From Saccoglossus kowalevskii (taxonomy: Eukaryota > Hemichordata > Enteropneusta > Harrimaniidae): 31,751 nt of DNA. Shown in pieces: positions 1 to 21,781 of this stretch (positions are counted from its first letter, which is position 1; every line of letters begins with the position of its first letter). The DNA is taken from the NCBI RefSeq assembly GCF_000003605.2, contig NW_003115444.1:1-31751 (forward strand). The letters run 5' to 3'. Made by a program: the position numbers and the translations under genes. Under the pieces are notes generated by a model. It was not told the DNA's origin and made no database searches. It was given only the letters and a program-made list of their open reading frames with translations.

Positions 1-102
1 GTCAGGTGACCGACAAATATTTAAAGTAAAGCACAATCGTTCGTGGTTAGTACTTGCATGGGCGACTCCCTGAGTAAACGAGCCGTTGAATTCAATTTTT
101 TT
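1..102 (+). pseudogene. 5S rRNA-derived relic with T-run, type b (copy 1)
   Basis: The segment AGTAAAGCAC at 25-34 corresponds to 5S box A. The 18-mer GGTTAGTACTTGCATGGG (45-62) differs from the eukaryotic 5S box C region (GGTTAGTACTTGGATGGG, from memory) at one position. The match weakens through CCCTGAGTAAAC and ends at GCCGTTG, followed by seven T at 96-102, where a 5S gene would have its Pol III terminator. The usual GGG of the intermediate element is GTT here. About ten A+T-rich bases are inserted just before box A, and the first ~35 nt of a 5S gene are not recognisable, so no functional 5S rRNA can be made. Confidence 0.8.
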
Positions 103-306
103 GTTTCGTCACACATATGGAAAAGATATAAGGCAACGTTCCTGCATTCTTTCTTACTGTTGTATCAATCATTTATAGTGGCAAATCATGGAATATTTGT
201 AACTTTTTTTCAATTAATGGAAAGTTTTCAAATTCCTTCTAATTTTCTAGAACATGTTGCTGATGCTATCGGCACGTAGTGGGATTTAAGCTGTCAACAC
301 ACCGTA
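103..306. other. Unassigned A+T-rich segment of the repeat unit
   Basis: This is the stretch between the 5S-like T-run and the first CAAAG subrepeat. It holds no convincing gene, RNA or transposon remnant. It is conserved between copies to the same degree as the rest of the unit. It might contain a further, very diverged subrepeat (GCAACGTTCCTGCATTC at 133-149 loosely resembles the start of subrepeat C), but I could not align it with confidence. The same segment lies at offsets 103-306 in all other copies. Confidence 0.5.
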
Positions 307-353
307 CAAAGTTGTTCAAAGTGATTGCAAAGTTGTGCAAAGCTATTTCAAAG
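307..353. repeat. Helically phased CAAAG motifs (x5)
   Basis: CAAAG occurs at 307, 317, 328, 338 and 349, with spacings of 10, 11, 10 and 11 bp, averaging 10.5 bp, the helical repeat of B-DNA. All five therefore face the same side of the helix. The block is kept in nearly all copies. CAAAG is also the core recognised by TCF/LEF-type HMG-box proteins, but no binding can be inferred from sequence alone. Confidence 0.8.
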
Positions 354-498
354 TTGGTAGGTGTATTTGTATATATGACTAAAGTTATTGGCATACAGAA
401 ACGCGCAGTTGTAAAGTAGAAATCTTGAATAAAAGCCAGTTGAAATCAGCCTATATATGTTGACATGAGCTGACTGTAAAATGCTAGAAAACAGCGTG
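307..498 (+). repeat. Internal subrepeat A (192 bp)
   Basis: The subrepeat begins at the first CAAAG of the phased block. It shares with B and C the leader CAC/CAG-CGT-CAAAG, the landmark GTTGGTAG at 353-360, and the block CGCAGTTG (404) followed by an A-rich GAATAAA-type run and CCTATATATG. The landmark distances A to B are 168-169 bp. A is longer than B and C because it has a 21-bp internal duplication of the CAAAG region. The other copies carry it at the same offset. Confidence 0.8.
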
Positions 499-673
499 CA
501 AAGTATAAAAACGATGGAAATGTTGGCGGAGTTGCTTGTATATTTAACCTAAGTCATTGTCATGACAACCCCGCAGTTGAATTTCGAAAATATTAAGTAA
601 ATGTTCCGAGAATGCCTCATATATAAGCAGATTATCATAACAGCCAACCGAAAAATCGACAACAAACTGCTTA
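499..673 (+). repeat. Internal subrepeat B (175 bp)
   Basis: It opens with AGCGTGCAAAG, parallel to ACCGTACAAAG of subrepeat A. It then has GTTGGCGG (522), TTGTATATTTAACCTAAGTC, CGCAGTTGAATTTCG (572) and CCTCATATATAAG, each aligning in order with subrepeat A. The phased CAAAG block is degenerate: only the first pentamer (499) is intact, followed by AAAAC and AAATG about 9-10 bp apart. Confidence 0.8.
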
Positions 674-840
674 CAAAGTAGTGAAAAGCGATTGCAAAGT
701 TGGTAGTTTCATTCCTAATGGTTACCTGTGATAACATATTAAAAGATGCCATAGTTACAAATTCGAAAATGTGAATAAATAGTTCGTGATTTGCAGTTAA
801 ATTACCGGAGTGTTCCTAAAGGTATTTAGAGGTCATAGGT
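674..840 (+). repeat. Internal subrepeat C (~167 bp)
   Basis: It opens with CTGCTTACAAAG. It keeps CAAAG, AAAAG and CAAAG at 674, 684 and 695 (10 and 11 bp apart), then GTTGGTAG at 699. TTCGAAAAT at 762 matches the same word at 583 in B (179 bp apart). It lacks the extra 21 bp found in A. Confidence 0.75.
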
Positions 841-842
841 CA
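830..842 (+). promoter_or_regulatory. Perfect AGGTCA direct repeat, 1-bp spacer (DR1)
   Basis: AGGTCA-T-AGGTCA is the textbook DR1 layout of nuclear-receptor half-sites (RXR/USP, HNF4 and COUP-TF classes). The intact motif is found in 28 of the 33 complete copies. It is altered in copies 2 (AGGTTA), 4 (lost G), 12 (AGGACA), 28 and 33 (AGGTCT). Homogenisation alone could explain this retention, so a regulatory role is only a possibility. Confidence 0.3.
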
Positions 843-944
843 AATATAGAAAGCACTTGTTCAGCAATATCGATTTTAGAACATTCAAAAACATGAAGTA
901 GCCGCTAATTCTACTTTATTTCAAATAATTCATGCAGCTGTCTG
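841..944 (+). repeat. Truncated internal subrepeat D'
   Basis: CAAATATAGAAAGCACTTG aligns loosely with the start of subrepeat C (CAAAGTAGTGAAAAGCGATTG). The likeness fades before the next 5S-like head begins at about 943. It is therefore read as a fourth subrepeat cut by the 5S-derived segment. This is less certain than A, B and C. Confidence 0.45.
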
Positions 945-1046
945 GTCAGGTGACCGACAAATATTTAAAGTAAAGCACAATCGGGCGTGGTTAGTACTTG
1001 CATGGGAGACTCCCTGAGTAAACGAGCCGTTGAATTCAATTTTTTT
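943..1046 (+). pseudogene. 5S rRNA-derived relic, type a (copy 2; representative)
   Basis: The best-preserved form, found in most copies. TGGTCAGGTGACCGA (943-957) matches the 5S stretch TCGTCCGATCACCGA at 11 of 15 positions. About ten extra A+T bases follow. Then come AGTAAAGCAC (box A), TCGGGCG (intermediate element), and GGTTAGTACTTGCATGGG plus AGAC (box C). The homology decays over the next 20 bp, and T7 at 1040-1046 ends it. Family comparison is from memory of animal 5S rRNA. In other copies the relic spans from 2 bp before the copy start to about +101. It could be a former 5S rDNA unit or a 5S-derived SINE head; the sequence does not decide between these. Confidence 0.85.
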
Positions 1047-1881
1047 GTTTCGTCACACATATGGAAAAGATATAAAGCAACGTTCCTGCATTCTTTCTTA
1101 CTGTTGTATCAATCATTTATAGTGGCAAATCGTGATATTTGTAACTTTTTGCAATTAATGGAAAGTTTCAATTCCTTCTAATTTTCTAGACATGTTGCTG
1201 ATGCTATCGGCACGTAGTTGGTTTTAAGCTGTCAACACACGTACAAAGTTGTTCAAAGTGATTGCAAAGTTGTGCAAAGCTATTTCAAAGTTGGTAGGTG
1301 TATTTGTATATATGACTAAAGTTATTGGCATACAGAAACGCGCAGTTGTAAAGTCGAAAACTTGAATAAAAGCCAATTGAAAGCAGCCTATATATGTTGA
1401 CATGAACTGACTGTAAAATGTTAGAAAACAGCGTGCAAAGTATAAAAACGATGGAAATGTTGGCGGAATTGCTTGTATATTTAACCCAAGTCATTGTCAT
1501 GACAACCCCGCAGTTAAATTTCGAAAATATTAAGTAAATGTTCCGAGAATGCCTCATATATAAGCAGATTATCATAACAGCCAACCGAAAAATCGACAAC
1601 AAACTGCTTACAAAGTAGTGGAAAGCGATTGCAAAGTTGGTAGTTTCATTCCTAATGGTTACCTGTGATAACATATTAAAAGATGCCATAGTTACAAATT
1701 CGAAAATGTGAATAAATAGTTCGTCATTTGCAGTTAAATTACCGGAGTGTTCCTAAAGGTATTTAGAGGTTATAGGTCAAATATAGAAAGCACTTGTTCA
1801 GCAATATCGATTTTAGAACATTCAAAAACATGAAGTAGCCGCTAATTCCACTTTATTTCAAATAATTCATGCAGCTGTCTG
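945..1881 (+). repeat. Satellite copy 2 (937 bp)
   Basis: Shorter than the norm through several 1-bp losses (GAAAGTTTCAATTCC, CTAGACATG, ACACACGTAC). Half of its DR1 is changed to AGGTTA. Confidence 0.97.
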
Positions 1882-1986
1882 GTCAGGTGACCGATAAATA
1901 TTTAAAGTAAAGCACAATCGGGCGTGGTTAGTACTTGCATGGGAGACTCCCTGAGTAAACGAGCCGTTGAATTCAATTTTTTTTTT
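1880..1986 (+). pseudogene. 5S-derived relic with lengthened T-run (copy 3)
   Basis: Type a head. The G that normally ends the T7 is a T here, giving ten T in a row at 1977-1986. Confidence 0.8.
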
Positions 1987-2823
1987 CGTCACACATATGG
2001 AAAAGATATAAGGCAACGTTCCTGCATTCTTTCTTACTGTTGTATCAATCATTTATAGTGGCAAATCGTGGAATATTTGTAACTTTTTGCAATTAATGGA
2101 AAGTTTTCAAATTCCTTCTAATTTTCTAGAACATGTTGTTGATGCTGTCGGCACGTAGTGGGTTTTAAGCTGTCAACACACCGTACAAAGTTGTTCAAAG
2201 TGATTGCAAAGTTGTGCAAAGCTATTTCAAAGTTGGTAGGTGTATTTGTATATATGACTAAAGTTATTGGCATACAGAAACGCGCAGTTGTAAAGTCGAA
2301 AACGTGAATAAAAGCCTGTTGAAATCAGCCTATACATGTTGACATGAGCTGACTGTAAAATGTTAGAAAACAGCGTGCAAAGTATAAAAACGATGGAAAT
2401 GTTGGCGGAGTTGCTTGTATATTTAACCTATGTCATTGTAATGACAGCCCCGCAGTTAAATTTCGAAAATATTAAGTAAATGTTCCGAGAATGCCTCATA
2501 TATAAGCAGATTATCATAACAGCCAACCGAAAAATCGACAACAAACTGCTTACAAAGTAGTGAAAAGCGATTGCAAAGTTGGTAGTTTCATTCCTAATGG
2601 TTACCTGTGATAACATATTAAAAGATGCCATAGTTACAATTTCGAAAATGTGAATAAATAGTTCGTGAGTTGCAGTTAAATTACCGTAGTGTTCCTAAAG
2701 GTATTTAGAGGTCATAGGTCAAATATAGAAAGCACTTGTTCAGCAATATCGATTTTAGAACATTCAAAAACATGAAGTAGCCGCTAATTCTACTTTATTT
2801 CAAATAATTCATGCAGCTGTCTG
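1882..2823 (+). repeat. Satellite copy 3 (942 bp)
   Basis: Private changes include GACCGATAAAT, CCTATACATG, and ACCTATGTCATTGTAATGAC in subrepeat B. It also has ACCGTAGTG near the end of C, shared with the Y-type copies. Confidence 0.97.
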
Positions 2824-3765
2824 GTCAGGTGACCGTCAAATATTTAAAGTAAAGCACAATCGGGCGTGGTTAGTACTTGCATGGGAGACTCCCTGTGTAA
2901 ACGAGCTGTTGAATTCAATTTTTTTGTTTCGTCACACATATGGAAAAGATATAAGGCAACGTTCCTGCATTCTTTCTTACTGTTTTATCAATCATTTACA
3001 GTGGCAAATCGTGGAATATTTCTAACTTTTTTCAATTAATGGAAAGTTTTCAAATTCCTTCTAATTTTCTAGAACATGTTGTTGATGCTATCGGCACGTA
3101 GTGGGTTTTAAGCTGTCAACACACCGTACAAAGTTGTTCAAAGTGATTGCAAAGTTGTGCAAAGCTATTTCAAAGTTGGTAGGTGTATTTGTATATATGA
3201 CTAAAGTTATTGGCATACAGAAACGCGCAGTTGTAAAGTCGAAAACATGAATAAAAGCCAGTTGAAAGCAGCCTATATATGTTGACATGAGCTGACTGTA
3301 AAATGCTAGAAAACAGCGTGCAAAGTATAAAAACGATGGAAATGTTGGCGGAGTTGCTCGTATATTTAACCTAAGTCATTTTCATGACTACCCCGCAGTT
3401 GAATTTCGAAAATATTAAGTAAATGTTCCGAGAATGCCTCATATATAAGCAGATTATCATAACAGCTAACCGAAAAATCGACAACAAACTGCTTACAAAG
3501 TAGTGAAAAGCGATTGCAAAGTTGGTAGTTTCATTCCTAATGGTTACCTGTGATAACATATTAAAAGATGCCAGAGTTACAAATTCGAAAATGTGAATAA
3601 ATAGTTCGTGATTTGCAGTTAAATTACCGGAGTGTTCCTAAAGGTATTTAGAGGTCATAGTCAAATATAGAAAGCACTTGTTCAGCAATATCGATTTTAG
3701 AACATTCAAAAACATGAGGTAGCCGCTAATTCTACTTTATTTCAAATAATTCATGCAGCTGTCTG
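2824..3765 (+). repeat. Satellite copy 4 (942 bp)
   Basis: The head is variant (GACCGTCAA, CTGTGTAAACGAGCTG). The second half has a linked set shared with copy 10: AAAACATGAATA, TTGCTCGTAT, CATTTTCATGACTAC, CCAGAGTT, CATGAGGTAG. One DR1 half-site has lost a G. Confidence 0.97.
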
Positions 3766-4707
3766 GTCAGGTGACCGACAAATATTTAAAGTAAAGCAAA
3801 ATCGGGCGTGGTTAGTACTTGCATGGGAGACTCCCTGAGTAAACGAGCCGTTTAATTAAATTTTTTTGTTTCGTCACACATATGGAAAAGATATAAGACA
3901 ACGTTCCTGCATTCTTTCTTACTGTTGTATCAATCATTTATAGTGGCAAATCGTGGAATATTTGTAACTTTTTGCAATTAATGGAAAGTTTTCAAATTCC
4001 TTCTAATTTTCTAGAACATGTTGTTGATGCTGTCGGCACGTAGTGGGTTTTAAGCTGTCAACACACCGTACAAAGTTGTTCAAAGTGATTGCAAAGTTGT
4101 GCAAAGCTATTTCAAAGTTGGTAGGTGTATTTGTATATATGACTAAAGTTATTGGCATACAGAAACGCGCAGTTGTAAAGTCGAAAACGTGAATAAAAGC
4201 CAGTTGAAAGCAGCCTATATATGTTGACATGAGCTGACTGTAAAATGCTAGAAAACAGCGTGCAAAGTATAAAAACGATGGAAATGTTGGCGGAGTTGCT
4301 TGTATATTTAACCTAAGTCATTGTCATGACAACCCCGCAGTTGAATTTCGAAAATATTAAGTAAATGTTCCGAGAATGCCTCATATATAAGCAGATTATC
4401 ATAACAGCCAACCGAAAAATCGACAACAAACTGCTTACAAAGTAGTGAAAAGCGATTGCAAAGTTGGTAGTTTCATTCCTAATGGTTACCTGTGATAACA
4501 TATTAAAAGATGCCATAGTTACAAATTCGAAAATGTGAATAAATAGTTCGTGATTTGCAGTTAAATTACCGGAGTGTTCCTAAAGGTATTTAGAGGTCAT
4601 AGGTCAAATATAGAAAGCACTTGTTCAGCAATATCGATTTTAGAACATTCAAAAACATGAAGTAGCCGCTAATTCTACTTTATTCAAATAATTCATGCAG
4701 CTGTCTG
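3766..4707 (+). repeat. Satellite copy 5 (942 bp)
   Basis: Carries GCAAAATCGGG in the head, TTTAATTAAAT before the T-run, and ATAAGACAACG, which is shared with copies 12, 14 and 24. Confidence 0.97.
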
Positions 4708-4812
4708 GTCAGGTGACCAACAAATATTTAAAGTAAAGCACAATCGGGCGGGGTTAGTACTTGCATGGGAGACTCCCTGAGTAAACGAGCCGTTGAATTC
4801 AATTGTTTGTTT
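4706..4812 (+). pseudogene. 5S-derived relic with broken T-run (copy 6)
   Basis: Type a head with GGGCGGGGTT in place of GGGCGTGGTT. The terminator-like run is interrupted (AATTGTTTGTTTCG), leaving no four consecutive T. Confidence 0.8.
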
Positions 4813-5649
4813 CGTCACACATATGGAAAAGATATAAGGCAACGTTCCTGCATTCTTTCTTACTGTTGTATCAATCATTTATAGTGGAAAATCGTGGAAT
4901 ATTTGTAACTTTTTGCAATTAATGGAAAGTTTTCAAATTCCTTCAAATTTTCTAGAACATGTTGTTGATGCTGTCGGCACGTAGTGGGTTTTAAGCTGTC
5001 AACACACCGTACAAAGTTGTTCAAAGTGATTGCACAGTTGTGCAAAGCTATTTCAAAGTTGGTAGGTGTATTTGTATATATGACTAAAGTTATTGGCATA
5101 CAGAAACGCGCAGTTGTAAAGTCGAAAACGTGAATAAAAGCCCGTTGAAATCAGCCTATATATGTTGACATGAGCTGACAGTAAAATGCTAGAAAACAGC
5201 GTGCAAAGTATAAAAACGATGGAAATGTTGGCGGAGTTGCTTGTATATTTAACCTAAGTCATTGTCATGACAACCCCGCAGTTGAATTTCGAAAATATTA
5301 AGTAAATGTTCCGAGAATGCCTCATATATAAGCAGATTATCATAACAGCCAACCGAAAAATCGACAACAAACTGCTTACAAAGTAGTGAAAAGCGATTGC
5401 AAAGTTGGTAGTTTCATTCCTAATGGTTACCTGTGATAACATATTAAAAGATGCCATAGTTACAAATTCGAAAATGTGAATAAATAGTTCGTGATTTGCA
5501 GTTAAATTACCGGAGTGTTCCTAAAGGTATTTAGAGGTCATAGGTCAAATATAGAAAGCACTTGTTCAGCAATATCGATTTTAGAACATTCAAAAACATG
5601 AAGTAGCCGCTAATTCTACTTTATTTCAAATAATTCATGCAGCTGTCTG
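4708..5649 (+). repeat. Satellite copy 6 (942 bp)
   Basis: Shares GTGACCAACAAAT and AGTGGAAAATCG with copy 18, twelve units downstream. It has GATTGCACAG inside the phased CAAAG block, breaking one motif. Confidence 0.97.
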
Positions 5650-5751
5650 GTCAGGTGACCGACAAATATTTAAAGTAAAGCACAATCGTTCGTGGTTAGT
5701 ACTTGCTTGGGCGACTCCCTGAGTAAACGAGCCGTTGAATTCAATTGTTTT
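5648..5751 (+). pseudogene. 5S-derived relic, type b, short T-run (copy 7)
   Basis: ATCGTTCG and GGGCGAC mark it as type b. Box C reads ACTTGCTTGGG, one further change. The T-run is split by a G, leaving TTTT at 5748-5751. Confidence 0.8.
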
Positions 5752-6593
5752 GTTTCGTCACACATATGGAAAAGATATAAGGCAACGTTCCTGCATTCTT
5801 TCTTACTGTTGTATCAATCATTTATAGTCGCAAATCGTGGAATATTTGTAACTTTTTTCAATTAATGGAAAGTTTTCAAATTCCTTCTAATTTTCTAGAA
5901 CATGTTGTTGATGCTGTCGGCATGTAGTGGGTTTTAAGCTGTCAACACACCGTACAAATTTGTTCAAAGTGATTGCAAAGTTGTGCAAAGCTATTTCAAA
6001 GTTGGTAGGTGTATTTGTAAATATGACTAAAGTTATTGGCATACAGAAACGCGCAGTTGTAAAGTCGAAAACGTGAATAAAAGCCAGTTGAAAGCAGCCT
6101 ATATATGTTGACATAAGCTGACTGTAAAATGCTAGAAAACAGCGTGCAAAGTATTAAAAACGAAAGAAATGTTGGCGGAGTTGCTTGAATATTTAACCTT
6201 AGTCATTGTCATGACAACCCCGCAGTTGAATTTCGAAAATATTAAGTAAATGTTCCGAAAATGCCTCATATATAAGTAGATTATCATAACAGCCAACCGA
6301 AAAATCGACAACAAACTGCTTACAAAGTAGTGAAAAGCGATTGCAAAGTTGGTAGTTTCATTCCTAGTGGTTTCCTGTTATAACATATTAAAAGATGCCA
6401 TAGTTACAAATTCGAAAATGTGAATAAATAGTTCGTGATTTGCAGTTAAATTACCGGAGTGTTCCTAAAGGTATTTAGAGGTCATAGGTCAAATATAGAA
6501 AGCACTTGTTCAGCAATATCGATTTTAGAACATTAAAAAACATGAAGTAGCCGCTAATTCTACTTAAGTTTGAATAATTCATGCAGCTGTCAG
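5650..6593 (+). repeat. Satellite copy 7 (944 bp), type b
   Basis: A relatively diverged copy: GCATGTAGTGG, ACAAATTTG, GTAAATATGAC, ACATAAGCTG, GTATTAAAAACG, and CCTAGTGGTTTCCTG. The block ACAAATTTG to ACATAAGCTG is shared with copy 25. It ends with the unusual CTTAAGTTTGAATAATTC. Confidence 0.96.
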
Positions 6594-7538
6594 GTCAGGT
6601 GACCGACAAATATTTAAAGTAAAGCACAATCGGGCGTGATTAGTACTTGCATGGGAGACTCCCTGAGTAAACGAGCTGTTGAATTTATTTTTTTTGTTTC
6701 GTCACACATATGGAAAAGATATAAGGCAACGTTCCTGCATTCTTTCTTACTGTGATGTCAATCATTTATAGTGGAAAATCGTGGAATTTTTGTAACTTTT
6801 TTCAATTAATGGAAAGTTTATCAAATTCCTTCTAATTTTCTAGAACATGTTGTTGATGCTGCCGGCACGTAGTGGGTTTTAAGCTGTCAACACACCGTAC
6901 AAAGTTGTTCAAAGTGATTGCAAAGTCGTTCAAATCTGTTTCAAAGTTGGTAGGTGTATTTGTATATATGTCTTAAGTTATTGGCATACAGAAACGCGCA
7001 GTTGTAAAGTCGAAATCTTGAATAAAAGCCAGTTGAAAGCTGCCTATATATGTTGATATGAGCTGACTGTAAAATGCTGGAAAACAGCGTGCAAAGTATA
7101 AAAAACGATGGAAATGTTGGCGGAGTTTCTTGTATATTTAACCTAAGTCATTGTCATGACAACCCTGCAGTTGAATTTCGAAAATATTAAGTAAATGTTC
7201 CGAGAATGCCTCATATATAAGCAGATTATCATAACAGCCAACCGAAAAATCGACAACAAACTGCTTACAAAGTAGTGTAAAGCGATTGCAAAGTTGGTAG
7301 TTTCATTCCTAATGGTTACCTGTGATAACATATTAAAAGATGCCATAGTTACAAATTCGAAAATGTGAATAAATAGTTCGTGATTTGCAGTTAAATTACC
7401 GGAGTGTTCCTAAAGGTATTTAGAGGTCATAGGTCAAATATAGAAAGCACTTGTTTAGCAATATCGATTTTAGAACATTCAAAAACATGAAGTAGCCGCT
7501 AATTCTACTTAATTTCAAGTAATTCATGCATCTGTCTG
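6594..7538 (+). repeat. Satellite copy 8 (945 bp), partner of copy 20
   Basis: Shares with copy 20 a long set of variants: CTGTGATGTCAATC, GGAATTTTTG, GCTGCCGGCACG, AGTCGTTCAAATCTG, ATATGTCTTAAG, TGATATGAGC, ATGCTGGAAAAC, GGAGTTTCTTG, ACCCTGCAG, AGTGTAAAGC, TGTTTAGCAAT and CATGCATCTG. Confidence 0.97.
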
Positions 7539-8482
7539 GTCAGGTGACCGACAAATATTTAAAGTAAAGCACAATCGGGCGTGGTTAGTACTTGCATGGG
7601 AGAGTCCATGAGTAAACGAGCTGTTGAATTTATTTTTTTTTGTTTCGTCACACATATGGAAAAGATATAAGGCAACGTTCCTGCATTCTTTCTTACTGTT
7701 GTGACAATCATTTATAGTGGCAGATCGTGGAATATTTGTAACTTTTTTCAATTAATGGAAAGTTTTCAAATTCCTTCTAATTTTCTAAAATATGTTGTTG
7801 ATGCTGTCGGCACGTAGTGGGTTTTAAGCTGTCAACACACCGTACAAAGTTGTTCAAAGTGATTGCAAAGTTGTGCAAAGCTATTTCAAAGTTGGTAGGT
7901 GTATTTGTATATATGACTAAAGTTATTGGTATACAGAAACGCGCAGTTGTAAAGTCGAAAACGTGAATAAAAGCCAGTTGAAAGCAGCCTATATATGTTG
8001 ACATGAGCTGACTGTAAAATGCTAGAAAACAGCGTGCAAAGTATAAAAACGATGGAAATGTTGGCGGAGTTGCTTGTATATTTAACCTAAGTCATTGTCA
8101 TGACAACCCCGCAGTTGAATTTCGAAAATATTAAGTAAATGTTCCGAGAATGCCTCATATGTAAGCAGATTATCATAACAGCCAACCGAAAAATCGACAA
8201 CAAACTGCTTACAAAGTAGTGAAAAGCGATTGCAAAGTTGGTAGTTTCATTCCTAATGGTTACCTGTGATAACATATTAAAAGATGCCATAGTTACAAAT
8301 TCGAAAATGTGAATAAATAGTTCGTGATTTGCAGTTAAATTACCGGAGTGTTCCTAAAGGTATTTAGAGGTCATAGGTCAAATATAGAAAGCACTTGTTC
8401 AGCAATATCGATTTTAGAACATTCAAAAACATGAAGTAGCCGCTAATTCTACTTTATTTCAAATAATTCATGCAGCTGTCTG
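7539..8482 (+). repeat. Satellite copy 9 (944 bp), partner of copy 21
   Basis: The first ~370 bp match copy 21 in GAGAGTCCATGAG, GTGACAATC, GGCAGATCG and CTAAAATATG. The match stops near 7910-7930, after which this copy returns to the common type (with private GGTATAC) while copy 21 does not. Confidence 0.97.
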
Positions 8483-9425
8483 GTCAGGTGACCGACACAT
8501 ATTTAAAGTAAAGCACAATCGGGCGTGGTTAGTACTTGCATGGGAGACTCCCTGAGTAAACGAGCCGTTGAATTCAATTTTTTTGTTTCGTCACACATAT
8601 GGAAAAGATATAAGGCAACGTTCCTGCATTCTTTCTTACTGTTGTATCAATCATTTATAGTGGCAAATCGTGGAATATTTGTAACTTTTTGCAATTAATG
8701 GAAAGTTTTCAAATTCCTTCTAATTTTCTAGAACATGTTGTTGATGCTGTCGGCACGTAGTGGGTTTTAAGCTGTCAACACACCGTACAAAGTTGTTCAA
8801 AGTGATTGCAAAGTTGTGCAAAGCTATTTCAAAGTTGGTAGGTGTATTTGTATATATGACTAAAGTTATTGGCATACAGAAACGCGCAGTTGTAAAGTCG
8901 AAAACATGAATAAAAGCCAGTTGAAAGCAGCCTATATATGTTGACATGAGCTGACTGTAAAATGCTAGAAAACAGCGTGCAAAGTATAAAAACGATGGAA
9001 ATGTTGGCGGAGTTGCTCGTATATTTAACCTAAGTCATTTTCATGACTACCCCGCAGTTGAATTTCGAAAATATTAAGTAAATGTTCCGAGAATGCCTCA
9101 TATATAAGCAGATTATCATAACAGCCAACCGAAAAATCGACAACAAACTGCTTACAAAGTAGTGAAAAGCGATTGCAAAGTTGGTAGTTTCATTCCTAAT
9201 GGTTACCTGTGATAACATATTAAAAGATGCCAGAGTTACAAATTCGAAAATGTGAATAAATAGTTCGTGATTTGCAGTTAAATTACCGGAGTGTTCCTAA
9301 AGGTATTTAGAGGTCATAGGTCAAATATAGGAAGCACTTGTTCAACAATATCGATTTTAGAACATTCAAAAACATGAGGTAGCCGCTAATTCTTCTTTAT
9401 TTCAAATAATTCATTCAGCTGTCTG
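8483..9425 (+). repeat. Satellite copy 10 (943 bp)
   Basis: First half is consensus-like apart from GACACAT. The second half carries the AAAACATGAATA / GCTCGTAT / CATTTTCATGACTAC / CCAGAGTT set of copy 4. It ends with ATAGGAAGC, TTCAACAAT and TCATTCAGC. Confidence 0.97.
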
Positions 9426-10368
9426 GTCAGGTGACCGACAAATATTTAAAGTAAAGCACAATCGGGCGTGGTTAGTACTTGCATGGGAGACTCCCTGAGT
9501 AAACGAGCCGTTGAATTCATTTTTTTTGTTTCGTCACACATATGGAAAAGATATAAGGCAACGTTCCTGCATTCTTTCTTACTGTTGTATCAATCATTTA
9601 TAGTGGCAAATCGTGGAATATTTGTAACTTTTTGCAATTAATGGAAAGTTTTCAAATTCCTTCTAATTTTCTAGAACATGTTGTTGATGCTGTCGGCACG
9701 TAGTGGGTTTTAAGCTGTCAACACACCGTACAAAGTTGTTCAAAGTGATTGCAAAGTTGTGCAAAGCTATTTCAAATTTGGTAGGTGTATTTGTATATAT
9801 GACTAAAGTTATTGGCATACAGAAACGCGCAGTTGTAAAGTCGAAAACGTGAATAAAAGCCAGTTGAAATCAGCCTATATATGTTGACATGAGCTGACTG
9901 TAAAATGCTAGAAAACAGCGTGCAAAGTATAAAAACGATGGAAATGTTGGCGGAGTTGCTTGTATATTTAACCTAAGTCATTGTCATGACAACCCCGCAG
10001 TTGAATTTCGAAAATATTAAGTAAATGTTCCGAGAATGCCTCATATGTAAGCAGATTATCATAACAGCCAACCGAAAAATCGACAACAAACTGCTTACAA
10101 AGTAGTGAAAAGCGATTGCAAAGTTGGTAGTTTCATTCCTAATGGTTACCTGTGATAACATATTAAAAGATGCCATAGTTACAAATTCGAAAATGTGAAT
10201 AAATAGTTCGTGATTTGCAGTTAAATTACCGGAGTGTTCCTAAAGGTATTTAGAGGTCATAGGTCAAATATAGAAAGCACTTGTTCAGCAATATCGATTT
10301 TAGAACATTCAAAAACATGAAGTAGCCGCTAATTCTACTTTATTTCAAATAATTCATGCAGCTGTCTG
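9426..10368 (+). repeat. Satellite copy 11 (943 bp)
   Basis: GAATTCATTTTTTTTG lengthens the T-run to eight. TTTCAAATTTGG is shared with copy 17, six units downstream. CATATGTAAG is shared with copies 9, 16 and 27. Confidence 0.97.
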
Positions 10369-11311
10369 GTCAGGTGACCGACAAATATTTAAAGTAAAGC
10401 ACAATCGGGCGTGGTTAGTACTTGCATGGGAGACTCCCTGAGTAAACGAGCCGTTGAATTCAATTTTTTTGTTTCGTCACACATATGGAAAAGATATAAG
10501 ACAACGTTCCTGCATTCTTTCTTACTGTTGTATCAATCATTTATAGTGGCAAATCGTGGAATATTTGTAACTTTTTGCAATTAATGGAAAGTTTTCAAAT
10601 TCCTTCTAATTTTCTAGAACATGTTGTTGATGCTGTCGGCACGTAGTGGGTTTTAAGCTGTCAACACACCGTACAAAGTTGTTCAAAGTGATTGCAAAGT
10701 TGTGCAAAGCTATTTCAAAGTTGGTAGATGTATTTGTATATATGACTAAAGTTATTGGCATACAGAAACGCGCAGTTGTAAAGTCGAAAACGTGAATAAA
10801 AGCCAGTTGAAAGCAGCCTATATATGTTGACATGAGCTGACTGTAAAATGCTAGAAAACAGCGTGCAAAGTATAAAAACGATGGAAATGTTGGCGGAGTT
10901 GCTTGTATATTTAACCTAAGTCATTGTCATGACAACCCCGCAGTTGAATTTCGAAAATATTAAGTAAATGTTCCGAGAATGCCTCATATATAAGCAGATT
11001 ATCATAACAGCCAACCAAAAAATCGACAACAAACTGCTTACAAAGTAGTGAAAAGCGATTGCAAAGTTGGTAGTTTCATTCCTAATGGTTACCTGTGATA
11101 ACATATTAAAAGATGCCATAGTTACAAATTCGAAAATGTGAATAAATAGTTCGTGATTTGCAGTTAAATTACCGGAGTGTTCCTAAAGGCATTTAGAGGA
11201 CATAGGTCAAATATAGAAAGCACTTGTTCAGCAATATCGATTTTAGAACATTCAAAAACATGAAGTAGCCGCTAATTCTACTTTATTTCAAATAATTCAT
11301 GCAGCTGTCTG
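10369..11311 (+). repeat. Satellite copy 12 (943 bp), partner of copy 24
   Basis: Shares AGACAACG and the rare CCAACCAAAAAATCG with copy 24, twelve units away. GGTAGATG is shared with copies 14 and 15. The DR1 is damaged (AGGACATAGGTCA). Confidence 0.97.
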
Positions 11312-12255
11312 GTCAGGTGACCGACAAATATTTAAAGTAAAGCACAATCGGGCGTGGTTAGTACTTGCATGGGAGACTCCCTGAGTAAACGAGCCGTTGA
11401 ATTCAATTTTTTTGTTTCGTCACACATATGGAAAAGATATAAGGCAACGTTCCTGCATTCTTTCTTACTGTTGTATCAATCATTTATAGTGGCAAATCGT
11501 GGAATATTTGTAACTTTTTGCAATTAATGGAAAGTTTTCAAATTCCTTCTAATTTTCTAGAACATGTTGTTGATGCTGTCGGCACGTAGTGGGTTTTAAG
11601 CTGTCAACACACCGTACAAAGTTGTTCAAAGTGATTGCAAAGTTGTGCAAAGCTATTTCAAAGTTGGTAGGTGTATTTGTATATATGACTAAAGTTATTG
11701 GCATACAGAAACGCGCAGTTGTAAAGTCGAAAACGTGAATAAAAGCCAGTTGAAAGCAGCCTATATATGTTGACATGAGCTGACTGTAAAATGCTAGAAA
11801 ACAGCGTGCAAAGTATAAAAACGATGGAAATGTTGGCGGAGTTGCTTGTATATTTAACCTAAGTCATTGTCATGACAACCCCGCAGTTGAATTTCGAAAA
11901 TATTAAGTAAATGTTCCGAGAATGCCTCATATATAAGCAGATTATCATAACAGCCAACCGAAAAATCGACAACAAACTGCTTACAAAGTAGTGAAAAGCG
12001 ATTGCAAAGTTGGTAGTTTCATTCCTAATGGTTACCTGTGATAACATATTAAAAGATGCCATAGTTACAAATTCGAAAATGTGAATAAATAGTTCGTGAT
12101 TTGCAGTTAAATTACCGGAGTGTTCCTAAAGGTATTTAGAGGTCATAGGTCAAATATAGGAAGCACTTGTTCAGCAATATCGATTTTAGAACATTCAAAA
12201 ACATGAGGTAGCCGCTAATTCTACTTTTGTTTCAAATAATTCATGCAGCTGTCTG
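11312..12255 (+). repeat. Satellite copy 13 (944 bp), near consensus
   Basis: Close to the common sequence over most of its length. The tail has ATAGGAAGC, CATGAGGTAG and ACTTTTGTTTC. Confidence 0.97.
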
Positions 12256-13198
12256 GTCAGGTGACCGACAAATATTTAAAGTAAAGCACAATCGGGCGTG
12301 GTTAGTACTTGCATGGGAGACTCCCTGGGTAAACGAGCCGTTGAATTAAATTTTTTTGTTTCGTCACACATATGGAAAAGATATAAGACAACGTTCCTGC
12401 ATTCTTTCTTACTGTTGTATCAATCATTTATAGTGGCAAATCGTGGAATATTTGTAACTTTTTGCAATTAATGGAAAGTTTTCAAATTCCTTCTAATTTT
12501 CTAGAACATGTTGTTGATGCTGTCGGCACGTAGTGGGTTTTAAGCTGTCAACACACCGTACAAAGTTGTTCAAAGTGATTGCAAAGTTGTGCAAAGCTAT
12601 TTCAAAGTTGGTAGATGTATTTGTATATATGACTAAAGTTATTGGCATACAGAAACGCGCAGTTGTAAAGTCGAAAACGTGAATAAAAGCCAGTTGAAAG
12701 CAGCCTATATATGTTGACATGAGCTGACTGTAAAATGCTAGAAAACAGCGTGCAAAGTATAAAAACGATGGAAATGTTGGCGGAGTTGCTTGTATATTTA
12801 ACCTAAGTCATTGTCATGACAACCCCGCAGTTAAATTTCGAAAACATTAAGTAAATGTTCCGAGAATACCTTATATATAAGCAGATTATCATAACAGCCA
12901 ACCGAAACATTGACAACGAACTGCTTACAAAGTAGTGAAAAGCGATTGCAAAGTTGGTTGTTTCATTAGTAATGGTTACCTGTGATAACATATTAAAAGA
13001 TGCCACAGTTACGAATTCAAAAATGTGAATAAATAGTTCGTGATTTGCATTTAAATTACCGCAGTGATACTAAATGTATTTAGAGGTCATAGGTCAAATA
13101 TAGAAGGGACTTGTTCAGCAATATCGATTTTAAAACCTTCAAAAACATAAAATAGCCGCTAATTCTACTTAATTTTAAATAATCCATGCAGCTGTCTG
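12256..13198 (+). repeat. Satellite copy 14 (943 bp), diverged second half
   Basis: The first half is ordinary (CTGGGTAAAC, AGACAACG, GGTAGATG). From about 12830 changes become dense: AATACCTTATAT, GAAACATTGACAACGAAC, GGTTGTTTCATTAG, CACAGTTACGAATTC, CCGCAGTGATACTAAATG, GAAGGGACTTG, AAAACCTTC and CATAAAATAG. This opens the most divergent stretch of the window. Confidence 0.96.
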
Positions 13199-13300
13199 GT
13201 CAGGTGACTGACACATATTTAGAGTAAAGCACAGTCAGGCGTGGTTAGTACTTGCATGGGAAACTCCCTGAGTAAACGAGCTGTTGAATTTAATTTTTTT
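13197..13300 (+). pseudogene. 5S-derived relic, diverged (copy 15)
   Basis: GGTGACTGACACAT, AGTCAGGCG and GGGAAACTCC show extra changes, including in the intermediate element. Box C (GGTTAGTACTTGCATGGG) and T7 (13294-13300) are intact. Confidence 0.78.
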
Positions 13301-14140
13301 GTTTCGTCACACATATGGAAAAGATATAAGGCAACGTTCCTGCATTCTTTCTTACTGTTGTGTCAATAATTTATAGTGGCAAATCGTGGAATATTTGTAA
13401 CTTTTTGCAATTAATGGAAAGTTTTCAAATTCCTTCTAATTTTCTAGAACATGTTGTTGATGCTGTCGGCACGTAGTGGGTTTTAAGCTGTCAACACACC
13501 GTACAAAGTTGTTCAAAATGATTGCAAAGTCGTGCAAATCTGTTTCAAAGTTGGTAGATGTATTTGTATATATGACCTAAGTTATTGGCATACAGAAACG
13601 CGCAGTTGTAAAGTCGAAGACTTGACTAAAAGCCAGTTGAAAGCAGCCTATATATGTTGATATGAGCTGACTGTAAAATGCTAGAAAACAGCGTGCAAAG
13701 TATAAAAAACGTAAGAAATGTTGGCGGAGTGCTTGTATATTTAACCTTAGTCATTGTCATGACAACCCCGCAGTTAAATTTCGAAAATATTAAGTAAATG
13801 TTCCGAGAATACCTCATATATAAGCAGATTATCGTAACAGCCAACCGAAAAATCGACAACAAACTGCTTACAAAGTATGAAAAGCGATTGCAAAGTTGGT
13901 AGTTTCATTCCTAATGGTTACCTGTGATAACATATTAAAAGATGCCATAGTTACAAATTCGAAAATGTGAATAAATAGTTCGTGATTTGCAGTTAAATTA
14001 CCGGAGTGTTCCTAAAGGTATTTAGAGGTCATAGGTCAAATATAAAAAGCACTTGTTCAGCAATATCGATTTTAGAACATTCAAAAACATGAAGTAGCCG
14101 CTAATTCTACTTTATGTCAAATAATTCATGCAGCTGTCTG
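13199..14140 (+). repeat. Satellite copy 15 (942 bp), diverged
   Basis: Continues the divergent stretch: GACTGACACATATTTAGAG, GTCGTGCAAATCTG, GACCTAAG, CGAAGACTTGACTA, GATATGAGC, AAAAAACGTAAG. Several of these resemble copies 8 and 20, suggesting an older variant family. The tail from about 13870 is close to consensus. Confidence 0.96.
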
Positions 14141-15082
14141 GTCAGGTGACCGACAAATATTTAAAGTAAAGCACAATTGTTCGTGTTTAGTACTTGCATG
14201 GGCGACTCCCTGAGTAAACGAGCCGTTGAATTCAATTTTTTTGTTTCGTCACACATATGGAAAAGATATAAGGCAACGTTCCTGCATTCTTTCTTACTGT
14301 TGTATCAATCATTTATAGTCGCAAATCGTGGAATATTTGTAACTTTTTTCAATTAATGGAAAGTTTTCAAATTCCTTCTAATTTTCTAGAACATGTTGTT
14401 GATGCTGTCGGCACGTAGTGGGTTTTAAGCTGTCAACACACCGTACAAAGTTGTTCAAAGTGATTGCAAAGTTGTGCAAAGCTATTTCAAAGTTGGTAGG
14501 TGTATTTGTATATATGACTAAAGTTATTGGCATACAGAAACGCGCAGTTGTAAAGTAGAAAACGTGAATAAAAGCCAGTTGAAATCAGCCTATATATGTT
14601 GACATGAGCTGACTGTAAAATGCTAGAAAACAGCGTGCAAAGTATAAAAACGATGGAAATGTTGGCGGAGTTGCTTGTATATTTAACCTAAGTCATTGTC
14701 ATGACAACCCCGCATTGAATTTCGAAAATATTAAGTAAATGTTCCGAGAATGCCTCATATGTAAGCAGATTATCATAACAGCCAACCGAAAAATCGACAA
14801 CAAACTGCTTACAAAGTAGTGAAAAGCGATTGCAAAGTTGGTAGTTTCATTCCTAATGGTTACCTGTGATAACATATTAAAAGATGCCATAGTTACAAAT
14901 TCGAAAATGTGAATAAATAGTTCGTGATTTGCAGTTAAATTACCGGAGTGTTCCTAAAGGTATTTAGAGGTCATAGGTCAAATATAGAAAGCACTTGTTC
15001 AGCAATATCGATTTTAGAACATTCAAAAACATGAAGTAGCCGCTAATTCTACTTTATTTCAAATAGTTCATGCAGCTGTCTG
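14141..15082 (+). repeat. Satellite copy 16 (942 bp), type b
   Basis: Type b head with ATTGTTCGTGTTTAG. CCCCGCATTG (1-bp loss) and CATATGTAAG are both shared with copy 27. Confidence 0.97.
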
Positions 15083-16025
15083 GTCAGGTGACCGACAAAT
15101 ATTTAAAGTAAAGCACAATCGGGCGTGGTTAGTACTTGCATGGGAGACTCCCTGAGTAAACGAGCCGTTGAATTCAATTTTTTTGTTTCGTCACACATAT
15201 GGAAAAGATATAAGGCAACGTTCCTGCATTCTTTCTTACTGTTGTATCAATCATTTATAGTGGCAAATCGTGGAATATTTGTAACTTTTTGCAATTAATG
15301 GACAGTTTTCAAATTCCTTCTAATTTTCTAGAACATGTTGTTGATGCTGTCGGCACGTAGTGGGTTTTAAGCTGTCAACACACCGTACAAAGTTGTTCAA
15401 AGTGATTGCAAAGTTGTGCAAAGCTATTTCAAATTTGGTAGGTGTATTTGTATATATGACTAAAGTTATTGGCATACAGAAACGCGCAGTTGTAAAGTCG
15501 AAAACGTGAATAAAAGCCAGTTGAAATCAGCCTATATATGTTGACATGAGCTGACTGTAAAATGCTAGAAAACAGCGTGCAAAGTATAAAAACGATGGAA
15601 ATGTTGGCGGAGTTGCTTGTATATTTAACCTAAGTCATTGTCATGACAACCCCGCAGTTGAATTTCGAAAATATTAAGTAAATGTTCCGAGAATGCCTCA
15701 TATATAAGCAGATTATCATAACAGCCAACCGAAAAATCGACAACAAACTACTTACAAATTAGTGAAAAGCGATTGCAAAGTTGGTAGTTTCATTCCTAAT
15801 GGTTACCTGTGATAACATATTAAAAGATGCCATAGTTACAAATTCGAAAATGTGAATAAATAGTTCGTGATTTGCAGTTAAATTACCGGAGTGTTCCTAA
15901 AGGTATTTAGAGGTCATAGGTCAAATATAGAAAGCACTTGTTCAGCAATATCGATTTTAGAACATTCAAAAACATGAAGTAGCCGCTAATTCTACTTTAT
16001 TTCAAATAATTCATGCAGCTGTCTG
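15083..16025 (+). repeat. Satellite copy 17 (943 bp)
   Basis: Private GGACAGTTTTC and AACTACTTACAAATTAG; the latter breaks the CAAAG that opens subrepeat C. TTTCAAATTTGG links it to copy 11. Confidence 0.97.
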
Positions 16026-16968
16026 GTCAGGTGACCAACAAATATTTAAAGTAAAGCACAATCGGGCGTGGTTAGTACTTGCATGGGAGACTCCCTGAGT
16101 AAACGAGCCGTTGAATTCAATTTTTTTGTTTCGTCACACATATGGAAAAGATATAAGGCAACGTTCCTGCATTCTTTCTTACTGTTGTATCAATCATTTA
16201 TAGTGGAAAATCGTGGAATATTTGTAACTTTTTGCAATTAATGGAAAGTTTTCAAATTCCTTCTAATTTTCTAGAACATGTTGTTGATGCTGTCGGCACG
16301 TAGTGGGTTTTAAGCTGTCAACACACCGTACAAAGTTGTTCAAAGTGATTGCAAAGTTGTGCAAAGCTATTTCAAAGTTGGTAGGTGTATTTGTATATAT
16401 GACTAAAGTTATTGGCATACAGAAACGCGCAGTTGTAAAGTCGAAAACGTGAATAAAAGCCAGTTGAAATCAGCCTATATATGTTGACATGAGCTGACTG
16501 TAAAATGCTAGAAAACAGCGTGCAAAGTATAAAAACGATGGAAATGTTGGCGGAGTTGCTTGTATATTTAACCTAAGTCATTGTCATGACAACCCCGCAG
16601 TTGAATTTCGAAAATATTAAGTAAATGTTCCGAGAATGCCTCATATATAAGCAGATTATCATAACAGCCAACCGAAAAATCGACAACAAACTGCTTACAA
16701 AGTAGTGAAAAGCGATTGCAAAGTTGGTAGTTTCATTCCTAATGGTTACCTGTGATAACATATTAAAAGATGCCATAGTTACAAATTCGAAAATGTGAAT
16801 AAATAGTTCGTGATTTGCAGTTAAATTACCGGAGTGTTCCTAAAGGTATTTAGAGGTCATAGGTCAAATATAGAAAGCACTTGTTCAGCAATATCGATTT
16901 TAGAACATTCAAAAACATGAAGTAGCCGCTAATTCTACTTTATTTCAAATAATTCATGCAGCTGTCTG
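16026..16968 (+). repeat. Satellite copy 18 (943 bp), partner of copy 6
   Basis: Otherwise consensus-like; GTGACCAACAAAT and AGTGGAAAATCG pair it with copy 6. Confidence 0.97.
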
Positions 16969-17911
16969 GTCAGGTGACCGACAAATATTTAAAGTAAAGC
17001 ACAATCGGGCGTGGTTAGTACTTGCATGGGAGACTCCCTGAGTAAACGAGCCGTTGAATTCAATTTTTTTGTTTCGTCACACATATGGAAAAGATATAAG
17101 GCAACGTTCCTGCATTCTTTCTTACTGTTGTATCAATCATTTATAGTGGCAAATCGTGGAATATTTGTAACTTTTTGCAATTAATGGAAAGTTTTCAAAT
17201 TCCTTCTAATTTTCTAGAACATGTTGTTGATGCTGTCGGCACGTAGTGGGTTTTAAGCTGTCAACACACCGTACAAAGTTGTTCAAAGTGATTGCAAAGT
17301 TGTGCAAAGCTATTTCAAAGTTGGTAGGTGTATTTGTATATATGACTAAAGTTATTGGCATACAGAAACGCGCAGTTGTAAAGTCGAAAACGTGAATAAA
17401 AGCCAGTTGAAATCAGCCTATATATGTTGACATGAGCTGACTGTAAAATGCTAGAAAACAGCGTGCAAAGTATAAAAACGATGGAAATGTTGGCGGAGTT
17501 GCTTGTATATTTAACCTAAGTCATTGTCATGACAACCCCGCAGTTGAATTTCGAAAATATTAAGTAAATGTTCCGAGAATGCCTCATATATAAGCAGATG
17601 ATCATAACAGCCAACCGAAAAATCGACAACAAACTGCTTACAAAGTAGTGAAAAGCGATTGCAAAGTTGGTAGTTTCATTCCTAATGGTTACCTGTGATA
17701 ACATATTAAAAGATGCCATAGTTACAAATTCGAAAATGTGAATAAATAGTTCGTGATTTGCAGTTAAATTACCGGAGTGTTCCTAAAGGTATTTAGAGGT
17801 CATAGGTCAAATATAGAAAGCACTTGTTCAGCAATATCGATTTTAGAACATTCAAAAACATGAAGTAGCCGCTAATTCTACTTTATTTCAAATAATTCAT
17901 GCAGCTGTCTG
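16969..17911 (+). repeat. Satellite copy 19 (943 bp), near consensus
   Basis: One of the cleanest copies. The only clear variant is CAGATGATCATAAC, shared with copy 22. Confidence 0.97.
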
Positions 17912-18855
17912 GTCAGGTGACCGACAAATATTTAAAGTAAAGCACAATCGGGCGTGGTTAGTACTTGCATGGGAGACTCCCTGAGTAAACGAGCCGTTGA
18001 ATTTATTTTTTTTGTTTCGTCACACATATGGAAAAGATATAAGGCAACGTTCCTGCATTCTTTCTTACTGTGATGTCAATCATTTATAGTGGAAAATCGT
18101 GGAATTTTTGTAACTTTTTTCAATTAATGGAAAGTTTTCAAATTCCTTCTAATTTTCTAGAACATGTTGTTGATGCTGCCGGCACGTAGTGGGTTTTAAG
18201 CTGTCAACACACCGTACAAAGTTGTTCAAAGTGATTGCAAAGTCGTTCAAATCTGTTTCAAAGTTGGTAGGTGTATTTGTATATATGTCTTAAGTTATTG
18301 GCATACAGAAACGCGCAGTTGTAAAGTCGAAATCTTGAATAAAAGCCAGTTGAAAGCAGCCTATATATGTTGATATGAGCTGACTGTAAAATGCTGGAAA
18401 ACAGCGTGCAAAGTATAAAAAACGATGGAAATGTTGGCGGAGTTTCTTGTATATTTAACCTAAGTCATTGTCATGACAACCCTGCAGTTGAATTTCGAAA
18501 ATATTAAGTAAATGTTCCGAGAATGCCTCATATATAAGCAGATTATCATAACAGCCAACCGAAAAATCGACAACAAACTGCTTACAAAGTAGTGTAAAGC
18601 GATTGCAAAGTTGGTAGTTTCATTCCTAATGGTTACCTGTGATAACATATTAAAAGATGCCATAGTTACAAATTCGAAAATGTGAATAAATAGTTCGTGA
18701 TTTGCAGTTAAATTACCGGAGTGTTCCTAAAGGTATTTAGAGGTCATAGGTCAAATATAGAAAGCACTTGTTTAGCAATATCGATTTTAGAACATTCAAA
18801 AACATGAAGTAGCCGCTAATTCTACTTAATTTCAAGTAATTCATGCATCTGTCTG
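17912..18855 (+). repeat. Satellite copy 20 (944 bp), partner of copy 8
   Basis: Carries the copy-8 variant set from about 18002 onward. Its head keeps GAGCCGTTG where copy 8 has GAGCTGTTG, so the shared tract begins just after the 5S-like relic. Confidence 0.97.
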
Positions 18856-19800
18856 GTCAGGTGACCGACAAATATTTAAAGTAAAGCACAATCGGGCGTG
18901 CTTAGTACTTGCATGGGAGAGTCCATGAGTAAACGAGCTGTTGAATTTATTTTTTTTTGTTTCGTCACACATATGGAAAAGATAAAAGGCAACGTTCCTG
19001 CATTCTTTCTTACTGTTGTGACAATCATTTATAGTGGCAGATCGTGGAATATTTGTAACTTTTTTCAATTAATGGAAAGTTTTCAAATTCCTTCTAATTT
19101 TCTAAAATATGTTGTTGATGCTGTCGGCACGTAGTGGGTTTTAAGCTGTCAACACACCGTACAAAGTTGTTCAAAGTGATTGCAAAGTTGTGCAAAGCTA
19201 TTTCAAAGTTGGTAGGTGTATTTGTATATATGACTTAAGTTATTGGCATACAGAAACGCGCAGTTGTAAAGTCGTAAACTTGAATAAAAGCCAGTTGAAA
19301 GCAGCCTATATATGTTGACATGAGCTGACTGTAAAATGCTTGAAAACAGCGTGCAAAGTATAAAAAACGATGGAAATGTTGGCGGAGTTGCTTGTATATT
19401 TAACCTAAGTCATTGTCATGACAACCCCGCAGTTAAATTTCGAAAATATTAAGTAAATGTTCCGAGAATGCCTCATATATAAGCAGATTATCATAACAGC
19501 CAACAGAAAAATCGACAACAAACTGCTTACAAAGTAGTGAAAAGCGATTGCAAAGTTGGTAGTTTCATTCCTAATGGTTACCTGTGATAACATATTAAAA
19601 GATGCCATAGTTACAATTTCGAAAATGTGAATAAATAGTTCGTGATTTGCAGTTAAATTACCATAGTGTTCCTAAAGGTATTTAGAGGTCATAGGTCAAA
19701 TATAGAAAGCATTTGTTCAGCAATATCGATTTTAGAACATTCAAAAACATGAAGTAGCCGCTAATTCTACTTAATTTCTAATAATTCATGCAGCTGTCTG
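18856..19800 (+). repeat. Satellite copy 21 (945 bp), partner of copy 9
   Basis: Matches copy 9 in its first ~370 bp, then diverges (GACTTAAG, CGTAAACTTG, GCTTGAAAAC, CCAACAGAAAAATCG, ACCATAGTG). Private GTGCTTAG lies in the 5S-like head. Confidence 0.97.
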
Positions 19801-19898
19801 GTCAGGTGACTGACAAAGATTTAAAGTAAAGCACAATCGTTCATGGTTAGTACTTGCATGGGCAAACGAGAAAACGAGCCGTTGAATTCAATTTTTTT
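19799..19898 (+). pseudogene. 5S-derived relic, rearranged (copy 22)
   Basis: Type b-like (ATCGTTCATGG). After CATGGGC the usual GACTCCCTGAGT is replaced by AAACGAGA, duplicating the neighbouring AAACGAG; the net loss is 4 bp. T7 at 19892-19898 is intact. Confidence 0.8.
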
Positions 19899-20738
19899 GT
19901 TTCGTCACACATATGGAAAAGATATAAGGCAACGTTCCTGCATTCTTTCTTACTGTTGTATCAATCATTTATAGTGGCAAATCGTGGAATATTTGTAACT
20001 TTTTGCAATTAATGGAATGTTGTCAAATTCCTTCTAATTTTCTAGAACATGTTGTTGATGCTGTCGGCACGTAGTGGGTTTTAAGCTGTCAACACACCGT
20101 ACAAAGTTGTTCAAAGTGATTGCAAAGTTGTGCAAAGCTATTTCAAAGTTGGTAGGTGTATTTGTATATATGACTAAAGTTATTGGCATACAGAAACGCG
20201 CAGTTGTAAAGTCGAAAACTGGAATAAAAGCCAGTTGAAAGCAGCCTATATATGTTGACATGAGCTGACTGTAAAATGCTAGAAAACAGCGTGCAAAGTA
20301 TAAAAACGATGGAAATGTTGGCGGAGTTGCTTGTATATTTAACCTAAGTCATTGTCATGACAACCCCGCAGTTGAATTTCGAAAATATTAAGTAAATGTT
20401 CCGAGAATGTCTCATATATAAGCAGATGATCATAACAGCCAACCGAAAAATCGACAACAAACTGCTTACAAAGTAGTGAAAAGCGATTGCAAAGTTGGTA
20501 GTTTCATTCTAATGGTTACCTGTGATAACATATTAAAAGATGCCATAGTTACAAATTCGAAAATGTGAATAAATAGTTCGTGATTTGCAGTTAAATTACC
20601 GGAGTGTTCCTAAAGGTATTTAGAGGTCATAGGTCAAATATAGAAAGCACTTGTTCAGCAATATCGATTTTAGAACATTCAAAAACATGAAGTAGCCGCT
20701 AATTCTACTTTATTTCAAATAATTCATGCAGCTGTCTG
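19801..20738 (+). repeat. Satellite copy 22 (938 bp)
   Basis: Shortened by a rearrangement in the head and a 1-bp loss at CATTCTAATGG. Also carries GGAATGTTGTCAAATTC, AACTGGAATAAAAG and GAGAATGTCTC. Confidence 0.97.
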
Positions 20739-21681: not shown

Positions 21682-21781
21682 GTCAGTGACCGACAAATAT
21701 TTAAAGTAAAGCACAATCGTTCGTGGTTAGTACTTGCATGGGCGACTCCCTGAGTAAACGAGCCGTTGATTCAATTTTTTT
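21680..21781 (+). pseudogene. 5S-derived relic, type b (copy 24)
   Basis: A 1-bp loss turns the GGTCA-GG-TGACC of other copies into GGTCA-G-TGACC, a perfect inverted repeat with a 1-bp spacer. Otherwise type b with T7 at 21775-21781. Confidence 0.78.

Follow-up and report, generated by a model that had tools for sequence, protein, structure and literature searches.

A 943-bp tandem satellite of Saccoglossus kowalevskii carrying a decayed piece of a 5S rRNA gene

The stretch of Saccoglossus kowalevskii DNA analyzed here, 31,751 bp long and hereafter called the window, is a tandem array of a 943-bp satellite whose monomer carries a worn piece of 5S rRNA gene at its head. The 5S ancestry of this piece, the decay shared by its copies, the tandem layout, and the existence of related satellites of ∼706 to 947 bp are established by the analyses below. 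Our preferred interpretation, which we hold to be probable, is that the monomer captured the piece from the host and that the piece is now a fossil promoter drifting with the unit. In such a scenario, a fragment of a host 5S rRNA gene would have entered the 943-bp monomer and decayed to the internal control region (a worn box A, an intact intermediate element (IE), and most of box C) plus a T-run, and this decay would have preceded amplification of the monomer. Ordinary unequal exchange or circle-based amplification would presumably have spread and homogenized the units, the subfamilies, which are 85–87% alike, would have arisen separately, and any transcription from the 5S piece would be incidental.

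The array and its 5S-derived head

The window belongs to an assembly of 572 Mb in 4830 contigs. Anchored alignment located 34 of 34 heads, and unit cutting gave 33 whole units of 932–945 bp with a consensus of 943 bp and a mean pairwise identity of 96.8% (range 93.8–99.7%). The features of the array are as follows:

1..31751, + strand: tandem array of the 943-bp satellite, 33 whole units and a partial one, constituting the whole of contig C882
307..356, + strand: short internal repeats of ∼21 bp (CAAAGTTGTGCAAAG...), found in each unit (TRF, 34 rows)
945..1881, + strand: second unit, 937 bp, with 5' end GTCAGGTGACCG, delimited by unit cutting; the copy on which the preliminary description was based

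Self-blastn and alignment of the unit revealed three longer, diverged internal repeats within the 943 bp as well. Mean identity between units was flat over lags 1 to 24 (0.963 to 0.971); therefore, no higher-order repeat is evident in the window, and we rejected a higher-order periodicity of the array. Some units that lie far apart are unusually similar (99.6% between units 8 and 20; 99.4% between units 1 and 27). Furthermore, GTTC replaces GGGC in the 5S core of seven scattered heads among the 34 (at 25, 5674, 14165, 19825, 21705, 23589, and 28290), hinting at exchange between distant units.

ARAGORN found no tRNA in the window, and no Rfam family reached its gathering score there, a single sub-threshold snoRNA match being listed. 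A Pfam scan of 4 of the 57 listed ORFs returned no family, on which basis a protein-coding unit body was rejected. A tRNA-type promoter was likewise rejected, as one B-box pattern had no match in the unit; an A-box pattern matched once, at unit position 179. Elsewhere in the assembly, cox1 of the mitochondrial contig C4830 (17,037 bp) is oriented oppositely to all eight other long protein genes in our tabulation; codons there read TGA as Trp, ATA best as Ile, and AAA as Lys, which would fit a deuterostome such as a hemichordate.

We compared the unit with the commonest host 5S gene sequence (20 of 30 fetched genes). The local alignment scored 77, compared with maxima of 34 in 1000 dinucleotide shuffles of the unit and 33 in 1000 of the gene (Gumbel p = 5e-13 and 8e-13, respectively), and blastn of the doubled unit against host 5S loci recovered the gene core at E = 3.9e-10. 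Both checks, a similarity unequalled in shuffled sequence and a hit to the host's own 5S genes, bear out the earlier claim of a 5S-derived head. The similarity is concentrated in the 5S 49–91 part, whose score of 66 was reached by 0/2000 shuffles both ways. The 5S 1–48 part matched from 23 to 48 only (score 21, reached by 10/2000 and 6/2000 shuffles), and the 5S 92–119 part scored 14, equalled by 87/2000 and 93/2000 shuffles; past position 91, 12 of 28 bases are identical. The strong match is thus limited to 43 bp and is weak outside, and the 5S-like region of ∼120 bp that characterizes the frog satellite PcP190 is not present. The features of the head in the second unit are listed below; the names and borders of box A, IE, and box C are those of the Xenopus numbering, which we take to apply to the host 5S.

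932..956, + strand: weak match to 5S 23–48, crossing the unit border; its score of 21 is the highest among the 75-bp windows of the unit
969..983, + strand: worn equivalent of box A (5S 50–64), 10/15 identical to host 5S
981..1010, + strand: 30 bases identical to host 5S 62–91, exact in 19/34 heads
986..991, + strand: equivalent of the IE (5S 67–72), 6/6 identical
999..1016, + strand: equivalent of box C (5S 80–97), 15/18 identical; commonest form in 22/34 heads
1040..1046, + strand: run of seven T close to where a 5S terminator would lie, 30 nt past the core versus 28 in the real gene

The three promoter motifs follow one another in 5S order, with variants, in 34/34 heads, as the preliminary description had stated for every copy. 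Two of its details need adjustment. It placed the 5' part of the 5S region at 943–957; such a part is present, but it starts earlier, as the weak match at 932–956. It also reported seven T at the terminator place, and the longest T-run indeed reaches at least 7 in 32 of the 34 heads, but it is 4 in one head and 3 in another. The run starts 30 nt past the core in the window, 29 nt in five other 943-bp arrays and an isolated copy, and 28 nt in the gene.

Structural comparison gave a different outcome. With Rfam model RF00001, the covariance check suggested by the preliminary description, Infernal found no 5S match with an E of 10 or below anywhere in the window; on positions 930–1060, it gave 16.6 bits (E = 0.27), short of the gathering score of 38. 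The head strand folded no better than its shuffles (z = 0.07), compared with z = −2.57 for a real host gene; the 5S secondary structure has been lost from the head. We therefore rejected the head as a 5S gene, given that it is not full length, lacks the 5S fold, and falls below the RF00001 gathering score. Its descent from a 5S gene is supported by the alignments.

Related satellites, shared decay, and the 5S core

To describe the distribution of the core, we used a 22-mer (5S 70–91) with up to one mismatch, a query that counts real 5S genes in. It had 4419 + 2781 = 7200 sites in the 572-Mb assembly, whereas the reversed control had 0. The core sites examined sit in satellites of ∼943, 947, 920, 728, 706, and 216 bp. 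Among 100 listed core sites, 50 were on 943-type contigs (27 on C324, 22 on C389, and 1 on C124), 43 on 216-type contigs (20 on C111, 19 on C242, and 4 on C404), 5 on a 728-bp array (C115), and 1 each on C6 and C203. Genome-wide, an 18-mer of the 943 type (up to one mismatch) had 2608 sites, which would correspond to ∼2.5 Mb of this satellite if each site equals one unit. A 216-type 30-mer (up to three mismatches) had 3810 sites, and a pattern for the other families (up to two mismatches) had 1817, some 943-type sites possibly being among them.

Five further 943-bp arrays constitute two subfamilies, which have 84.8–86.9% identity with the window and each other. The head is also shared by arrays with units of 728, ∼920, 947, and 706 bp, and a worn array on C6 has two heads ∼505 bp apart. 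Among the matches listed, core sites on C4046 are spaced ∼723 bp and multiples thereof, suggesting one more unit length. The 216-bp satellite (on C111, C242, and C404) is composed of a whole 5S-like sequence and a ∼97-bp spacer. Its consensus, tabulated from 21 aligned stretches, some of them partial, has nine substitutions relative to the gene, none in 62–110; this tabulation covers substitutions and leaves out extra bases, of which most of the alignments to 5S contain one. Three 216-type stretches matched the 943-bp unit at the core alone. One change, G to A at 5S 61, is common to the 216-bp satellite and most of the heads compared.

The copies of the 943-bp satellite share their departures from 5S. 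All 34 window heads have AGTAAA (AGTTAA in 5S), and at one of five changed box A sites, a single head among the 34 has the 5S base. The window, the five other 943-bp arrays in their two subfamilies, and the isolated copy have AAGTAAAG instead of the gene's AAGTTAAG; TCCCTGA is common to the 943-bp arrays, whereas the isolated copy has TTCTTGA. The earlier statement that all copies carry the same changes is, in the main, accurate, and the distribution of these changes beyond the window supports its proposal that the 5S piece would have decayed before the monomer was amplified.

The part of the 5S gene that has been retained is the one on which a type 1 Pol III promoter depends. The heads could accordingly be weak working promoters of this type, with a TFIIIA-bound core and a transcript of ∼100 nt or longer reaching the T-run, their activity keeping the core in the units that spread; we consider this rather unlikely. 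It would account for the intact IE, the 15/18 identity in box C, and the 30-mer that is exact in 19/34 heads. It would also fit the presence of a T-run of at least 5, located 25–30 nt after the core, in 7/7 heads compared (three of them representing 943-bp subfamilies), a regularity that, like the retention of the promoter part, uniform decay does not predict and that speaks against the fossil interpretation. A transcribed 5S-derived satellite is known in PcP190 of frogs, although its transcripts come from the whole repeat and not from the 5S part alone (according to excerpts of PMC11675491).

The conservation of the core was assessed between families and within arrays. Between the 943- and 728-bp families, 40/43 core positions are identical versus 394/611 in the body. 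Across five families, 33/43 core columns are invariant versus 261/551 body columns (p = 2e-4), the core being tied for the best window; these families were, however, found through the core itself, and the core columns that had not been used for searching gave 12/21 versus 261/551 (p = 0.51). A body window at unit positions 547–591 comes near the level of the core, with 31/43 columns invariant across families. This segment (about 547–591 of the window in the first unit) sits inside an internal repeat.

Within arrays, the core proved no more conserved than the body. Pooling six arrays, we counted mismatches in 70/2406 core cells versus 863/46538 body cells, so that the core is the more variable, an excess driven by the window (45/1418 versus 384/27451, p = 2e-6); each of the other five arrays showed no difference between core and body. 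In a relic array on C203, identical positions amounted to 153/172 in the core and 1756/2035 in the body (p = 0.35). Because the families had been found via the core, we withdrew the between-family excess as a sign of conservation, and because the core is not more conserved within arrays, in the relic array, or in the unascertained columns, we make no claim of constraint on it. These comparisons, together with the worn box A, weigh against working promoters, and a present function of the 5S core is not supported by the sequence comparisons. Uniform decay leaves one aspect unexplained: 30 central bases are identical to those of the gene, whereas their flanks have changed strongly. The ancestor may have captured only the promoter piece, or selection may have acted before the satellite arose.

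Origin of the unit and comparison with known systems

A family search of the host genome returned 47 full-length 5S matches, all over the cut-off, so that the host has at least 47 5S genes. They form arrays with a spacing of ∼1139 bp on C3485 and ∼1579 bp on C2212 and C3801. The two array types differ in their spacers (∼1139-bp unit on C3485, ∼1579-bp unit on C2212), and AAGAGGGCGCACCAC, read by eye, is kept in both, ∼270 bp after the gene start. When the satellite unit was compared by blastn with four 5S loci in which both kinds of spacer are represented, matches beyond the core were only 15–22 bp long (E of at least 2.3); two further 5S stretches matched the unit at the core alone. The preliminary description had offered a 5S rDNA repeat, gene plus spacer, as one possible ancestor and had proposed a search for full 5S arrays with a similar spacer. 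The arrays exist, but neither spacer type resembles the unit body significantly, and we rejected a gene-plus-spacer repeat of the present-day 5S arrays as the ancestor of the unit.

An older or lost 5S spacer is a possible source of the body. The monomer would then be an old 5S rDNA repeat whose gene is dead and whose spacer has since disappeared from the active arrays, an origin that we find doubtful. The presence in this genome of the 216-bp satellite, which contains an entire 5S-like sequence, shows that dead 5S repeats have turned into satellites in this host; moreover, the G to A change at 5S 61 links this satellite to most heads compared. That shared change, however, is a single CpG site, the three 216-type stretches resemble the 943-bp unit at the core alone, and the body is unlike both of today's spacer types.

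Among described systems, PcP190 of frogs is described as 5S rDNA-derived, with a segment ∼70% like 5S and the rest resembling no known 5S spacer (according to excerpts of PMC11675491 and PMC4201667). The window unit is similarly a tandem, high-copy, 5S-derived satellite whose remainder is unlike the host 5S spacers. The two differ in size and content: PcP190 is ∼190 bp long with a 120-bp 5S-like region, whereas the window unit is 943 bp long with a promoter-sized piece. The 216-bp satellite of the host, with its whole 5S-like sequence, is a closer match to PcP190 than the window unit is, and the ∼120-bp 5S-like region marks PcP190 itself and not 5S-derived satellites generally. The fish Hoplias malabaricus has a 5S-derived satellite, 5SHindIII, with a unit shorter than the 943 bp of the window. 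As in the window, this is tandem DNA derived from 5S rDNA, in that case centromeric (cited in the excerpted text of PMC4201667).

A broader proposal would be that satellites of at least six unit lengths spread owing to a 5S-type Pol III core and terminator in every monomer, with thousands of sites binding TFIIIA and Pol III and thereby aiding amplification or heterochromatin control, independently paralleling PcP190. We regard it as improbable.

Alternatively, the monomer might have begun as a mobile element bearing a 5S promoter, either a SINE3 or a TRIM resembling Ajax or Cassandra, and have been amplified in tandem later; our estimate of the likelihood of this origin is low. According to excerpts of PMC10886601, Ajax and Cassandra are TRIMs whose LTRs contain a 5S piece, Ajax retains nothing of 5S beyond box A, IE, and box C, SINE3 has the 5S promoter region at its head with more divergence upstream, and SINEs measure 100–700 bp. 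The promoter-only piece of Ajax is indeed like that of the window head, and in SINE3, the 5S promoter region heads the element as it does here; SINE3, on the other hand, is dispersed, whereas the window repeat is tandem and longer. Ajax and Cassandra belong to the LTR elements and possess a PBS, a PPT, and target-site duplications; in the one isolated copy, the terminal repeats contain no 5S piece.

This copy (C1000:853921-854966) spans ∼1.1 units and is 87.9% like the window over 826 bp. Its ends repeat directly over 82 bp with 86.6% identity, as a mobile element might, but the 5S piece lies outside this terminal repeat, unlike in TRIMp3. By eye, neither SINE ends nor a target-site duplication or a tail were identified on this one copy, and from a single copy a mobile element is not distinguishable from a broken array. 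Elsewhere on long contigs (C761, C257, C203, and C6), the pieces that bear the core are partial, worn, or rearranged. Taking the first 100 exact matches to the core in the list of 7200 sites, 98 are on array-spaced or proven-array contigs, and the remaining two, on the long contigs C6 and C203, belong to worn arrays. A T-run just past the head would, in addition, be expected to stop a SINE transcript. A 5S-derived SINE, the other ancestor entertained in the preliminary description, was thus not substantiated, all core-bearing loci examined being tandem arrays or partial worn pieces.

Finally, maintenance of the 30 identical bases by gene conversion from 5S genes or the 216-bp satellite would find abundant donors (at least 47 genes and 3810 sites of the 216-type 30-mer) but is improbable, as AGTTAA, the 5S state adjoining the core, is present in 0/34 window heads and, of the five changed box A sites, one carries the 5S base in one head only.

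Significance of the 5S-derived satellites

The window repeat is a striking case of a known process, without a shown present function. 5S-derived satellites are known from a few vertebrates; this one, whose 5S derivation is well supported, is unusual in its long unit, its promoter-sized relic, and its family of unit lengths. In open-literature titles and the starts of abstracts, a scope that leaves most subscription journals outside, we found neither a 5S-derived hemichordate satellite nor such a superfamily with many unit lengths, which is a weak sign of novelty.

The thousands of 5S-like sites in this genome can mislead 5S counts, probes, and mapping. Within one genome, there seems to be a graded series that runs from full 5S genes through the 216-bp satellite, in which the 5S-like sequence is whole, to core-only satellites of 706–947 bp, and this series lets experiment ask whether satellites spread more readily when they carry a Pol III promoter.
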